The translations under genes and the position numbers were made by a program. DNA of 64,000 bases, taken from the NCBI GenBank assembly GCA_025060635.1, contig JANXBN010000005.1:1-64000 (forward strand). The letters run 5' to 3'. The number at the start of each line of letters is the position of its first letter. Positions within the stretch are counted from its first letter, which is position 1. Origin of the DNA: Candidatus Kryptonium sp. (GTDB lineage: Bacteria > Bacteroidota > Ignavibacteria > Kryptoniales > Kryptoniaceae). Below are positions 3,001 to 43,028 of this stretch, one piece after another. Below the pieces are notes generated by a model, which worked only from the letters and a program-made list of their open reading frames with translations, was not told where the DNA came from and ran no database searches.

Positions 3001-5139
3001 TGTGAGGGATTGAAACGAAAATACTTGCCAGCAAACTTGCGGTAATTAGGTAGTTTGAATCGCACCTGTGAGGGATTGAAACTTAAGATTAAATGTTAAT
3101 CTTTCTTTTAATATAAGCATGTTTGAATCGCACCTGTGAGGGATTGAAACTACTTTTTTTGTTTTTAACTTTTTAATTTTATTGTTTTGTTTGAATCGCA
3201 CCTGTGAGGGATTGAAACATCGGTTTCCAATTTACAGTAAAAACAATGCTTTTGTGTTTGAATCGCACCTGTGAGGGATTGAAACGATTCAATTTCAATG
3301 CCATTGAGTTTCATTATGTCTTGTTTGAATCGCACCTGTGAGGGATTGAAACTTTCAGACGAAAGAATTATGGCAATTTACAACTTAGTTTGAATCGCAC
3401 CTGTGAGGGATTGAAACTAATATGTATGGGCTTGGTTAAGATTGGGTTAAGTTTGTTTGAATCGCACCTGTGAGGGATTGAAACGTTGAAGATGTTTTGG
3501 CGATACCGATTCCATATGAGTTTGAATCGCACCTGTGAGGGATTGAAACCAAATGCTTCATTTACAATTTTCTTCAAATCTTCAAAGTGTTTGAATCGCA
3601 CCTGTGAGGGATTGAAACGCGTTTCCAAATTTTTCACTGCAAATAAATTATTCTCCGTTTGAATCGCACCTGTGAGGGATTGAAACATCAGTTTCCAACC
3701 TACACTGAAACTAATCCGAGGAGTTTGAATCGCACCTGTGAGGGATTGAAACTAAACTTACTTTTAGCACAAATTGGACATTAATTGGTTTGAATCGCAC
3801 CTGTGAGGGATTGAAACTTGTATTACTCCTTCTTTTGTTTTTGATTTATTACGTTTGAATCGCACCTGTGAGGGATTGAAACTCCAAATCCAGTTTTCAT
3901 ACCTTCAACCCACAATAAGTTTGAATCGCACCTGTGAGGGATTGAAACTTTACGATATTCAAATACATATTGTTATTCCCTCCCTTGTTTGAATCGCACC
4001 TGTGAGGGATTGAAACAGTTCAAAAACCTCAACAGCATTATAAATTACACCATGTTTGAATCGCACCTGTGAGGGATTGAAACGCGTGCCTTTCCTTTAT
4101 CGGAAAGGCCAAATTACTTTGTTTGAATCGCACCTGTGAGGGATTGAAACTAGTATTGACCAATTCGGTTCTCAAAAGTGTTTGAATCGCACCTGTGAGG
4201 GATTGAAACAAATTCATTTGTCCAACCAAATTTGGCAAATTGTCAAGTTTGAATCGCACCTGTGAGGGATTGAAACGTGTTTTGCTGTGTTTTGTTAAAC
4301 TTGATAATCAAGTTTGAATCGCACCTGTGAGGGATTGAAACTGGTTTGTGATTTTGGTTGCACAATCGCATAAACGCAGTTTGAATCGCACCTGTGAGGG
4401 ATTGAAACAAGTTTTTAACTACGTATAGATTATCTTCCAATTTGTTTGAATCGCACCTGTGAGGGATTGAAACTATTTAAATTGTTTTAATTCGTTTAAC
4501 TTCAAACTTAGTTTGAATCGCACCTGTGAGGGATTGAAACGAAATAATGTTAAGATACATATTTTACCTCTCCTCTTTGTTTGAATCGCACCTGTGAGGG
4601 ATTGAAACTGATATACAGGAAAGAAACTTCGCATATTCTTGAGGTTGGTTTGAATCGCACCTGTGAGGGATTGAAACTATTTGCCAATTTACATTAAAAG
4701 TAATAGTTTTAGTTTGAATCGCACCTGTGAGGGATTGAAACTCTTCAGCTATCAATTGTTGTTCTCCCAAAACTTCTAGTTTGAATCGCACCTGTGAGGG
4801 ATTGAAACACAATATTTAAATACATCTTACTCCTCCTTTTTTTGTTTGAATCGCACCTGTGAGGGATTGAAACTGACAAAATCATTTGACAGTATTTTTC
4901 AATAAACATTTGTTTGAATCGCACCTGTGAGGGATTGAAACTAATTTATTGTTATTGTTTTTATGGTTTTCAAATAACGTTTGAATCGCACCTGTGAGGG
5001 ATTGAAACAAATTAATTTCTAATCTTTTCATCACAACAACTGGGTTTGAATCGCACCTGTGAGGGATTGAAACGAAACTGGAGGTAATTTAAAAAGCGCG
5101 AGAACATAAGTTTGAATCGCACCTGTGAGGGATTGAAAC
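54..5139 (+). CRISPR. Long CRISPR array, 77 intact 30-bp repeats
   Basis: Seventy-seven near-identical 30-bp repeats were counted by hand, the first at 54-83 and the last intact one at 5110-5139. Left half is GTTTGAATCGCACCTG and right half is TGAGGGATTGAAAC. The unit length is about 64-69 bp; spacers are mostly 34-39 nt, with one short spacer of 29 nt at 4151-4179. Repeats ending in ATTGAAAC normally give the 8-nt crRNA 5' handle, so the array is read left to right and the leader should lie left of the window. The decayed repeats to the right fit a leader-distal end. No cas gene is present in the window, so subtype is not shown directly; the repeat form is usual for types I-B and III. Translated reading frames inside the array are repeat artefacts. 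Many spacers are related to each other (see findings). Confidence 0.98.
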
Positions 5140-5175
5140 AATTGAGAAAAAGTGTGTCACATATTGGTAAAAAAT

Positions 5176-5228
5176 GTTTGAATCGCACTTGTCCCGAAGC
5201 ACTCCCCTTAAGGATGAGGGATTGAAAT
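5176..5228 (+). repeat. CRISPR repeat split by a 23-nt palindrome-like insert
   Basis: Bases 5176-5191 match the left 16 nt of the repeat with one change, and 5215-5228 match the right 14 nt with one change. Between them, 5192-5214 is a 23-nt insert that starts TCCCGAAG and ends CTTAAGGA. Removing it restores a 30-nt repeat. The flanking spacers (5140-5175 and 5229-5264) are 36 nt each, so the unit keeps normal array spacing. Confidence 0.9.
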
Positions 5229-5264
5229 GTTTACTTTTTGTTTACTGTATTGTTGAAATGAACA

Positions 5265-5316
5265 ATTTGAATTGCATCTGTCCCGAAGGGATCCCTTAGG
5301 AATGAGAAATTGAAAA
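5265..5316 (+). repeat. CRISPR repeat split by a 22-nt palindrome
   Basis: Left half 5265-5280 and right half 5303-5316 are degenerate repeat halves. The insert 5281-5302 is 22 nt and contains CCGAAGGGATCCCTTAGG, a near-perfect inverted repeat (AAGGGA/TCCCTT core, G-A mismatch, CC/GG outer pairs). It sits at the same point, after repeat base 16, as in the copy at 5176. Confidence 0.9.
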
Positions 5317-5355
5317 GTTAATTTGCTGTTAACTACAGCGTTATAAATGAAACTA

Positions 5356-5385
5356 ATTTGAATCACACCTGCCAAAAATTGAAAC
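5356..5385 (+). repeat. Degenerate CRISPR repeat without insert
   Basis: Thirty bases align over their full length with the array repeat, with changes concentrated in the middle (CTGCCAAAAATTGAAAC where the intact repeat has CTGTGAGGGATTGAAAC). A 39-nt spacer-sized stretch precedes it. This decayed copy has no palindromic insert. Confidence 0.8.
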
Positions 5386-5418
5386 TTGAAAAATGACCCC
5401 CCAACAATTAACAAATCA

Positions 5419-5469
5419 GCTTGAATCGCACCTGCTCCAAAGAAACCCATCAAGAATGAACAGAAAAAC
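5419..5469 (+). repeat. Degenerate CRISPR repeat with a decayed 22-nt insert
   Basis: 5419-5434 matches the left half of the repeat with one change. Then 22 nt (5435-5456) that vaguely resemble the palindrome (TCCAAAG...) precede a poorly conserved right half ending GAAAAAC. Insert length and position match the other split copies, but its sequence is too decayed to be certain. The next gene starts 15 bp downstream. Confidence 0.6.
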
Positions 5470-5484
5470 AAAACAAAAAAAGAT

Positions 5485-5916
5485 ATGATAATAAAGTACA
5501 AGAAAAATCAAAACATTTGCGAAGTATTAATTAAATTTGAAATTCCCAGAGACGCGCTTGAATATCAAGGCAGAATAGTGAAAAGCGGATTAGATAACTT
5601 CTTAAAAGATAGAGTAAAAATGGAGCTATTTTCTAAAACCTTGCTGGATTTAATACAGAATTTGAATATAGATGCTGATGATTTCGTGAATTTGTTAATG
5701 ATATATGCTGCTGATTTAACGCAGATAAGTGTGAAGATGGTTTGTGATGAATCCGGGATATTTGAAGGTTTACTTGAAAAACAAAAAGAGGAAGGAGTAG
5801 ATGAGATAACCATTGCAAGTTTGGTATTGAGCCTGATTGAAGTGCTAAGATATAAGGGTTATAAAATAGAAATAGAAGAAAACAAAAATTCAAACGAATT
5901 ACAATACCAGGCCTAA
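5485..5916 (+). CDS. Hypothetical protein between CRISPR array remnants
   Basis: This reading frame encodes 143 residues and I do not recognise it. It is predicted to be largely helical and acidic towards the C-terminus, with no membrane segment, signal peptide or Cys/His cluster. The ATG follows an A-rich stretch without a clear Shine-Dalgarno site, and Met46 is another possible start. The gene begins 15 bp after the last decayed repeat of the array, and further split repeats appear from 6211, so it lies inside what looks like an old, disrupted array. The next fragment overlaps its 3' end in another frame and looks like a broken replication protein. A piece of mobile DNA landing in the array would explain this, but that is inference. 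It may also be a remnant. Confidence 0.5.
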   Translation: MIIKYKKNQNICEVLIKFEIPRDALEYQGRIVKSGLDNFLKDRVKMELFSKTLLDLIQNLNIDADDFVNLLMIYAADLTQISVKMVCDESGIFEGLLEKQKEEGVDEITIASLVLSLIEVLRYKGYKIEIEENKNSNELQYQA

Positions 5917-6088
5917 TGAAGTTTTAAGGATAAATGAAAATTTGAAACTGGTCGGTAAGCCGATCGCTTATTATCCTGTTATTGCTAATGTTGTTGGTTC
6001 TGTTGTTGTTATTGTGTTTTTGTGTCAGTTTTTATACCGGCAAGGCAAAAAAATCATAGTCGGATTTGCAAAACGACTTACGAAATAA
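5903..6088 (+). pseudogene. Fragment of a phage/plasmid replication-type protein
   Basis: A frame ending with TAA at 6086-6088 reads RPNEVLRINENLKLV, then GKPIAYYPVIANVVGSVV, then FLCQFLYRQGKK. The pattern PIAYYP..A...GSV....L.QFLY.QGK is typical of the N-terminal region of DnaD/helix-turn-helix replication proteins of phages and plasmids, which normally read LYW where this has LYR. There is no good start codon (TTG 5942 is the only obvious one), and the frame stops after about 60 residues, far short of a full protein. I call it a truncated remnant. Family assignment is from motif memory. Confidence 0.45.
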
Positions 6089-6210
6089 ACAAGAAGACAA
6101 GTCTCTTAAGAAACCAACAGGAAACGGCAAAAAAGCGGTTGAAAAAGCTGAGTATATATTAGAGGAAAACGTGAGGGCTTGCCAGCCAGGCTGTTTTACA
6201 AGTTTAACTG
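6089..6210. other. Gap between replication remnant and split repeats
   Basis: An A-rich stretch can be read as a lysine-rich peptide (start 6066, running into the split repeat), but it has no family signal and I do not annotate it as a gene. Nothing else is recognised here. Confidence 0.4.
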
Positions 6211-6262
6211 GTTTAAATCGCACTTCTCCCAAAGGGATCCCTTTGGAATTAGGGATTGAAAC
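6211..6262 (+). repeat. Isolated CRISPR repeat split by a 22-nt palindrome
   Basis: Left half 6211-6226 (two or three changes) and right half 6249-6262 (13 of 14 bases identical) flank a 22-nt insert at 6227-6248. The insert contains AAAGGGATCCCTTT, a perfect 14-nt palindrome, framed by TCC and GGA. Without the insert a 30-nt repeat is restored. It lies about 740 bp beyond the end of the recognisable array, and a 36-nt spacer-sized stretch follows it. Confidence 0.85.
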
Positions 6263-6298
6263 ATTATGTTAAGATAATAAACCAAATATCGCCTGTTT

Positions 6299-6352
6299 GT
6301 TTGAATCGCACCTGTCCCGAAGTGATCCAATTAGGGAATGAGAAACTGAAAC
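6299..6352 (+). repeat. CRISPR repeat split by a 24-nt palindrome-like insert
   Basis: The left half at 6299-6314 is a perfect match to the array repeat. The right half at 6339-6352 has three changes. The 24-nt insert at 6315-6338 begins TCCCGAAG and ends TTAGGGAA, with TCCC/GGGA as outer pairs. Together with the copy at 6211 this forms a repeat-spacer-repeat unit with normal spacing, so it is an old piece of array. Confidence 0.85.
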
Positions 6353-6422
6353 ATCACTGCACACAACTTAACATAGGAATAGAAGTTTGTATTTTGAGCC
6401 TGCCTTTATTAAATTATATCAA

Positions 6423-6470
6423 GTTTAAACCGCTCTTGTCCCAAAAGGATTCCTTAGGGGGAATTGAAAC
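6423..6470 (+). repeat. Degenerate split CRISPR repeat
   Basis: 6423-6438 resembles the left half of the repeat, followed by a palindrome-like stretch (AAAAGGATTCCTT with flanking TCCC and GGGG), and then AATTGAAAC as the repeat end. The split is again after base 16. The right half has lost or merged about 4 nt. The 70 bp between this copy and the previous one would hold about two spacers. Confidence 0.75.
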
Positions 6471-42407: not shown

Positions 42408-42482
42408 CGGGACGTAGCGCAGCCTGGTTAGCGCACTACCTTGGGGTGGTAGGGGTCGCGGGTTCGAATCCCGCCGTCCCGA
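42408..42482 (+). tRNA. tRNA-Pro (GGG), intact copy
   Basis: A 75-nt cloverleaf: acceptor CGGGACG/CGTCCCG, anticodon arm CTACC-TTGGGGT-GGTAG with anticodon GGG, T arm GCGGG-TTCGAAT-CCCGC, discriminator A, followed by CTTTTTAT. No CCA is encoded. A disrupted second copy lies 317 bp downstream, after a GIY-YIG gene. Confidence 0.96.
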
Positions 42483-42521
42483 CTTTTTATGTTAAGTAAA
42501 AGACAAAATTGAAAAACTTTT

Positions 42522-42776
42522 GTGTCATACTTTGTTTACATACTTAAAAGTTTGAAAGACGACAATTTTTATATAGGACATACAAGGGATATAAGCAAAA
42601 GATTAAATCAACATAATTCTGGTAAGGTTAAGGCTACAAAAGGAAGAAGACCATTAAAGTTGATATATGTTGAGAAATTTGAAACCCGAAGTGAAGCTTT
42701 CAAGAGAGAAAAGTTTTTGAAAAGTCCCGCAGGTTATTTTGAGAAAATGGATATTATTGCTAAGTTTGGCAATTGA
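42522..42776 (+). CDS. Small GIY-YIG nuclease between two tRNA-Pro copies
   Basis: An 84-residue protein starting with GTG, made only of a GIY-YIG nuclease domain: YFVYILKSLKDDNFYIGHT contains both the (G/Y)VY and YIG strands, then the Arg in RDISKRLNQHN, His29-like HNSGKVKATKGRRPL, and the catalytic Glu in RSEAFKREK. It is of the UPF0213/UvrC-N type common in Bacteroidota genomes next to tRNA and rRNA genes. It lies 39 bp after an intact tRNA-Pro and 23 bp before a disrupted copy. A role in copying itself into tRNA loci, as homing endonucleases do, is an inference from this position. Confidence 0.9.
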   Translation: MSYFVYILKSLKDDNFYIGHTRDISKRLNQHNSGKVKATKGRRPLKLIYVEKFETRSEAFKREKFLKSPAGYFEKMDIIAKFGN

Positions 42777-42825
42777 AACTCGGTTGTTCTTTTAAAACTC
42801 GGGACATAGCGCAGCCTGGTTAGCG

Positions 42826-42847
42826 TCCCGAAGGGAGTCCTTAGGAC
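42826..42847 (+). repeat. 22-nt palindromic element, copy in tRNA (D/anticodon junction)
   Basis: The 22 nt begin TCCCGAAGGGA and end TCCTTAGGAC. They fold as a hairpin with AAGG/CCTT and CC/GG stems and a G-A mismatch. The same element type splits CRISPR repeats at 5176-6470. Confidence 0.85.
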
Positions 42848-42879
42848 CACTACCTTGGGGTGGTAGGGGTCGCGGGTTC

Positions 42880-42901
42880 TCCCGAAGGGACTCCTTTGGA
42901 G
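42880..42901 (+). repeat. 22-nt palindromic element, copy in tRNA (T loop)
   Basis: The 22 nt begin TCCCGAAGGGA and end CTCCTTTGGAG. Together with the preceding C it can pair CTCC with GGAG and AAGG with CCTT. It lies precisely between the two halves of the GGGTTC/GAATCCC inverted repeat of the T arm. Confidence 0.85.
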
Positions 42902-43028
42902 GAATTCCGCCGTCCCGACTTTTTATTTAAAATTCCGAAGCACATAAAGATTTTATAACTTTTTAAAATCCTCCCTAAAGCACCTGCCTTTAAATAGATC
43001 GGGGTAAAATTTAACGCTTTTAAAGCCT

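Follow-up and report, generated by a model that had tools for sequence, protein, structure and literature searches.

Palindrome-bearing spare tRNA copies beside stand-alone GIY-YIG nuclease genes: a possible tRNA-homing module of Bacteroidota

Why should a tRNA gene be followed, a few hundred bases downstream, by a second copy of itself that is interrupted twice by short palindromes? The question is raised by positions 42408-42918 of the window, the 64,000 nt stretch of Candidatus Kryptonium DNA analysed here. The first feature of this locus, at 42408..42482 on the forward strand, is an intact tRNA-Pro(GGG) gene, identified by both ARAGORN and Rfam (RF00005, 65.5 bits); it is one of 45 tRNAs in the genome (listed as G000:C5:42408) and the sole full-length copy of this gene found there, there being no other close match. 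On the same strand, at 42522..42776 and therefore between the two tRNA-Pro copies, lies an 84 aa open reading frame with a GTG start, which matches the GIY-YIG nuclease family PF01541 and encodes a stand-alone nuclease. The third feature, at 42800..42918 on the forward strand and 317 nt downstream of the intact tRNA, is the interrupted copy. Direct reading against the intact gene bears out the length given in the original prediction: 119 nt, made up of 75 nt of tRNA and two exact inserts of 22 nt each, with two base differences from the intact copy once these are taken away.

The first insert, TCCCGAAGGGAGTCCTTAGGAC, occupies 42826-42847 on the forward strand, between GCG and CAC, and folds as a double hairpin, TCCC-GAA-GGGA followed by GTCC-TTA-GGAC. 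The second, TCCCGAAGGGACTCCTTTGGAG, occupies 42880-42901 on the same strand, between GGTTC and GAATT in the T loop (tRNA positions 56 and 57), and likewise folds as a double hairpin, TCCC-GAA-GGGA followed by CTCC-TTT-GGAG. Both insertion points had been predicted correctly, with the refinement that the first falls at the 3' end of the D stem, between tRNA positions 24 and 25, and not in a loop. Compared with its paralogue, the copy shows exact insertion without target duplication. Neither ARAGORN nor Rfam calls a tRNA at 42800-42918, both recognising the intact copy only. A group I intron core was also sought; there is no Rfam intron in the window, and the inserts are 22 nt long, lie in two places and have an intact paralogue. 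The feature is a broken spare rather than a live interrupted tRNA. This spare status, the intervening GIY-YIG gene and the phylum-wide module to which they belong had been missed in the earlier reading of the sequence.

The possibility of an assembly artefact is excluded by the recurrence of the tRNA-Pro copy and both insert positions in Candidatus Chrysopegis kryptomonas JGI-23 (locus L079, genome G002), a member of the same genus, and, in a related form, in a further genome, G004. The order in Chrysopegis is a tRNA-Pro with both inserts, an intact tRNA-Pro, the GIY-YIG gene and a third tRNA-Pro copy, which has lost the whole stretch from one insert position to the other. G004 harbours insert-bearing spare copies and no nuclease of this GIY-YIG kind. 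The position of the first insert is also occupied in G013 and G008, as it is in G002 and G004, by palindromes that are partly different. In three other genomes of the genus, G001, G003 and G006, an intact tRNA-Pro is found at this place with the same downstream gene after it, and neither a GIY-YIG gene nor an extra tRNA copy is present; these are natural module-free loci. The spare tRNA-Pro copies share lineage-specific bases with the intact copy of their own genome (window 42408-42918 compared with L079:2380-2592), namely TT or T in the D loop and G or A following the insert in the T loop. To judge from these shared bases, there may have been gene conversion between copies, or the spares may have formed independently at identical sites.

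The nuclease gene gives some indication of the age of the arrangement. The 84 aa product scores about 68-69 bits against PF01541 (cut-off 22.6); besides it, the genome has one further GIY-YIG match, within a 617 aa ORF that we take to be UvrC. It has the GIY and YIG tyrosines, the conserved arginine and glutamate and, in a predicted model, the compact alpha/beta fold of the superfamily; across 25 tRNA-linked relatives, Y6, Y17, G19, R27, H31 and E63 are invariant. The predicted structure has a pLDDT of 96.6, and the nearest solved structures, by sequence as well as by fold, are the UPF0213 proteins and Slx1, which fit better than I-TevI. A phage origin was considered and rejected, phage GIY-YIG matches being distant, at < 60% identity. 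The Chrysopegis counterpart is 66% identical, with a dN of 0.27 and a dS of 1.42, values indicating that the gene is under purifying selection. This selection and divergence together imply that the linkage of tRNA and nuclease is not recent, and the earlier suggestion that the hairpins had inserted recently is not supported, as their positions are common to Chrysopegis and G004 although the neighbouring nuclease has diverged to 66% between the window and Chrysopegis.

The arrangement recurs widely. GIY-YIG genes were collected by profile search. Of 109 small loci sampled across the class, taken from the top of the score-ranked list and not independent where they share a genome, 45 had a tRNA within 400 nt (about 2-3 would be expected from tRNA density). 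The tRNA and the nuclease gene were on the same strand in all 45, and extra, partial copies of the linked tRNA were present at 42 loci of the sample. No tRNA was detected near 63 of the 109, some of which are at contig ends and some of which belong to other subfamilies. Outside the class, 13 of 17 GIY-YIG loci were linked to a tRNA, all on the same strand and 12 with extra copies. By contrast, random DNA drawn from the genomes sampled (397 kb) contained nine tRNAs and no extra copies; the single GIY-YIG gene in this control likewise comes after a tRNA. Similarly, extra copies were found at none of 40 sampled tRNA loci in two GIY-free genomes and at 4 of 20 in one that is GIY-rich. The module consists of an intact tRNA, a same-strand stand-alone GIY-YIG nuclease gene and at least one extra copy of that tRNA.

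Variants of this anatomy exist. At four loci (L066, L071, L085 and L089), element-bearing spare copies were found with no GIY-YIG gene detected nearby. When the tRNA-less GIY-YIG loci were searched with Rfam for other RNA targets, only one group I intron was found. At L180:1801-2047, a group I intron adjoins a GIY-YIG ORF, apparently within a tRNA gene, so that genomes of this class also contain the classical type carried by an intron. At L192 and L237, tRNA-less GIY-YIG genes are flanked by palindromic repeats, GTCATTCCCG..CGGGAATGAC, of dispersed occurrence, which may be another target of related nucleases.

The manner in which the spare copies are broken follows a consistent pattern. None of the 130 extra-copy tRNA fragments at 52 loci is full length. 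The arms least often retained are the anticodon loop (20 fragments) and the T loop (27), and those most often retained are the 3' strand of the acceptor (44) and the D loop (42); many spare copies are without the 5' acceptor strand or the entire 5' half. Where tRNA pieces are separated by an interruption, this contains a stem of at least 5 bp in 30 of 37 cases, compared with 11% of shuffles. The interruptions are either insertions, between positions 24 and 25, in the anticodon loop or between 56 and 57, or replacements of an arm. The site of the second insert is occupied in the same way in spare copies of many other tRNAs. In spare copies of tRNA-Lys, tRNA-Gln and tRNA-Ile, the 17 nt anticodon arm has been swapped exactly for a palindrome, the replacements being of the kinds TCCCGA..TCGGGA, CTCCGA..TCGGAG and TCCCGCC..GGCGGGA, and one tRNA position may carry different palindromes in different genomes. 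The GIY-YIG loci, 239 kb in all, contain 43 palindromes of the TCCCGA..TCGGGA type, which mostly abut tRNA fragments if a tRNA is present, as against one in 397 kb of control DNA.

These observations bear on two ways in which the spare copies might be functional. The original prediction had raised the removal of the hairpins from the RNA, such that the copy would be a live tRNA from which both 22-mers are precisely excised. The remainder of the tRNA, only two bases away from the intact gene, is as this would have it, but the idea is highly improbable given the intact tRNA-Pro upstream, the lack of an Rfam intron in the window, the replacement of the anticodon arm in the spare copies of many relatives, the absence of any full-length fragment and the deletion derivative present in Chrysopegis. 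A second proposal is that the spares act as functional tRNA-like RNAs, either as signals for the processing of the nuclease mRNA or as decoys for tRNA-targeting enzymes or integrases, with palindromes being selected because a cloverleaf-like fold stays while the anticodon goes. Hairpin is indeed exchanged for hairpin, the remaining tRNA is nearly identical, and changes in the inserts between species preserve their stems. Tandem arrays of three to eight broken tRNA copies are also found (L014:150-700, L066:918-1700 and L298:801-1470), and these could be transcribed as tRNA-like RNAs; at L066, each unit ends in an apparent terminator of its own, a further point in favour. Set against this are the many spares that lack the 5' acceptor strand or 5' half, the Chrysopegis copy with nothing between its two inserts, and the failure of Rfam and ARAGORN to call the window copy; the conservation, moreover, is explicable by gene conversion from the intact copy. 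Such a role therefore appears unlikely.

The explanation we favour, with a probability of about 0.5, is that 42408-42918 is one example of a Bacteroidota-wide selfish tRNA module, which spreads by SegB-like homing with a nuclease of the Slx1 fold and whose spare copies gain hairpins at the nuclease-sensitive arms. Besides the recurring anatomy, the same-strand linkage, the module-free loci and the palindromic breaks described above, the proposal rests on the similarity of the nuclease fold to UPF0213 and Slx1, and on the precedent of SegB with its T-loop motif. SegB, a phage GIY-YIG enzyme, cuts within tRNA genes and causes tRNA and segB to be amplified in tandem (PMC13096335). Its recognition motif is RAWTSGAAC (PMC13096335); by our own comparison, this corresponds on the opposite strand to GTTCSAWTY of the T loop, the site of the second insert. 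The resemblance to SegB and the free-standing GIY-YIG homing endonucleases of T-even phages extends to the placing of a nuclease gene among tRNA genes, the tandem tRNA and nuclease, the position of the gene beside its proposed target and the existence of module-free alleles (G001, G003 and G006). Unlike SegB, the modules described here are found in bacterial chromosomes rather than phage, encode a minimal Slx1-type domain of 80-100 aa for which cutting is inferred, and are accompanied by extra tRNA copies that are broken and bear palindromes.

Slx1 is a structure-specific endonuclease for branched DNA. The 84 aa nuclease resembles Slx1 and the UPF0213 (YhbQ-like) proteins in sequence and predicted fold, and differs from them in its linkage to tRNA genes and their broken copies. 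In the proposed homing cycle, the nuclease would cut the DNA of tRNA genes at arms or loops capable of forming hairpins, and repair from the module-bearing allele would both spread the nuclease and leave tandem tRNA copies. Copies dispensable for translation would then be disabled as short palindromes, probably entering at breaks, invade their loops or replace whole arms. Such events would be lethal in the essential tRNA copy, and hence purged, and tolerated in a spare. The palindromes may even be favoured there, through removing the nuclease's own target and preventing the production of an aberrant tRNA. As regards such self-protection, the spares are always broken, yet the adjoining intact tRNA is unaltered and T loops are often kept; with so many spare fragments having an intact T loop, blocking of this loop is not universal. 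The 22 nt inserts of the window would represent one palindrome family, a double-hairpin element that would also move elsewhere to sites able to form hairpins, CRISPR repeats among them.

This element can be followed beyond the tRNA genes. The sequence TCCCGAAGGGA occurs exactly three times in the 64 kb, where about 0.03 occurrences would be expected, and a strict form of the 22-mer pattern has two exact copies in the genome, which are the two tRNA inserts. Among the matches listed, the 22-mer is found in genomes of Ignavibacteria, Bacteroidia, Marinimicrobia and KSB1, and it is present in 12 of 296 sampled Bacteroidota genomes; the full pattern read backwards has no match in the 296. It is thus dispersed in genomes of the FCB group. 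In G054, identical 22-mers lie in spare copies of different tRNAs and at unrelated intergenic sites with unrelated flanks, which shows dispersal of the element itself. Sixteen variants from tRNA and CRISPR contexts show covariation consistent with two hairpins of 4 bp each, with 94.5% of cells paired, 13 double-sided changes and none of 500 shuffles as good; a single long hairpin was not supported by the covariation. When flanks were joined across element sites, ARAGORN found almost no full tRNAs, and the element-bearing copies are accordingly recognised as partial spares. In G008, a larger dispersed repeat is present in nine near-identical copies (L311-L319), with the double hairpin nested in other palindromes.

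Two classes of known repeat invite comparison. Mitochondrial double-hairpin elements are very short, are found in intergenic regions and inside genes, and are reportedly retained in transcripts (PMC2800124). The 22-mer is similarly short and hairpin-built, as are the repetitive hairpin-forming elements in the mitochondrial DNA of fungi and sponges, and has two adjacent hairpins with compensatory changes and a precise, dispersed insertion; the likeness is one of architecture, and unlike the mitochondrial elements it is bacterial, 22 nt long and situated in broken copies of tRNAs as well as in CRISPR repeats. Likewise, the REP or RAYT palindromes, tagged with GTAG or CGTC, are dispersed bacterial sequences of 20-40 bp (PMC3733652). 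The 22-mer shares their short, palindromic and dispersed nature, but no fixed tetranucleotide of this type stands at its base in 124 contexts, the flanks vary (the left flanking base is G in 45, T in 36, C in 32 and A in 11), and it sits inside tRNA and CRISPR units.

The inserts in CRISPR repeats, which had been noted as closely related to those in the tRNA, were verified at three places on the forward strand of the window: in a degenerate repeat at 5281..5302, where the element lies between CCTG and TGAG in the loop of the dyad CCT-GTG-AGG; in a solitary degenerate repeat at 6227..6248 (TCCCAAAGGGATCCCTTTGGAA); and, as a diverged copy, in another solitary degenerate repeat at 6439..6460. Contigs C15 and C25 of this genome likewise have related inserts in their CRISPR arrays, and in the better preserved repeats the insertion, between CCTG and TGAG, is again in the loop of the small dyad. 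The palindrome-bearing forms of the repeat GTTTGAATCGCACCTGTGAGGGATTGAAAC (window 5100-6470, L004 and L006) are mostly at array ends or solitary and degenerate, and on contig C25 a single one lies inside an otherwise regular array.

Such sites suggest the main rival to the homing module, that the 22-mer is an independent, non-autonomous mobile double hairpin entering the loops of any DNA hairpin, with no causal part for the GIY-YIG gene; spare tRNA copies, CRISPR repeats and terminators would simply be dispensable hairpins in which it survives. The insertions into CRISPR repeats here, which have no nuclease gene in their neighbourhood, the spare copies bearing the element at GIY-less loci (L066, L071 and L089) and the identical 22-mers at unrelated sites of G054 are all in keeping with this. 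At sites other than tRNAs, a flanking stem of at least 5 bp surrounds the insertion in 10 of 77 cases, compared with 2.3% of random sites (P ~1e-5), and at L300 the element occupies the centre of a 15 bp hairpin; the preference for hairpin centres is therefore real but partial, the majority of these sites being no hairpin centres. Furthermore, most exact 22-mer matches lie outside tRNA genes, which counts against the homing module in that it points to palindrome mobility independent of it, as do the GIY-YIG loci with no tRNA detected nearby and the spare copies with no nuclease detected nearby, those of G004 included, on more general grounds. On the other hand, the exact swap of a 17 nt anticodon arm is not an insertion, the control DNA of GIY-rich genomes is almost free of these palindromes, and many spares carry unrelated palindromes, such that what they share is the tRNA site and not any single element. 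An independent hairpin-seeking element is consequently regarded as possible, though on the doubtful side. As for the initial conjecture of a mobile hairpin entering structured RNA genes, the analysis upholds a defined, dispersed hairpin with a preference for hairpin sites, and does not uphold its restriction to RNA genes.

A broader form of the homing proposal is put forward more tentatively, as plausible without being the expected outcome: across the phylum, an Slx1-type nuclease in these minimal modules may recognise hairpins or cruciforms formed by tRNA DNA, leading to hairpins being inserted or exchanged for arms, and the same process may also seed CRISPR repeats and terminators. Palindrome capture and arm swapping would then constitute a DNA-structure-guided process without earlier description. 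A literature search, largely outside subscription papers and so weak evidence on this point, found no account of palindromic insertions in bacterial tRNA copies; within the same limits, no description was found of tRNA-linked GIY-YIG modules in chromosomes with tRNA copies disabled by palindromes.

Were the homing module to be borne out, it would represent a large and apparently undescribed family of tRNA-homing nuclease modules in bacterial chromosomes, one that leaves a visible record in the form of spare tRNA copies with palindromes in place of arms. Many tRNA-like fragments in Bacteroidota genomes would then have to be annotated as broken parts of modules, rather than as interrupted tRNAs. 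Short palindromic repeats, the spread of which has long been puzzling, would also gain a nuclease and a target that are testable in vitro.
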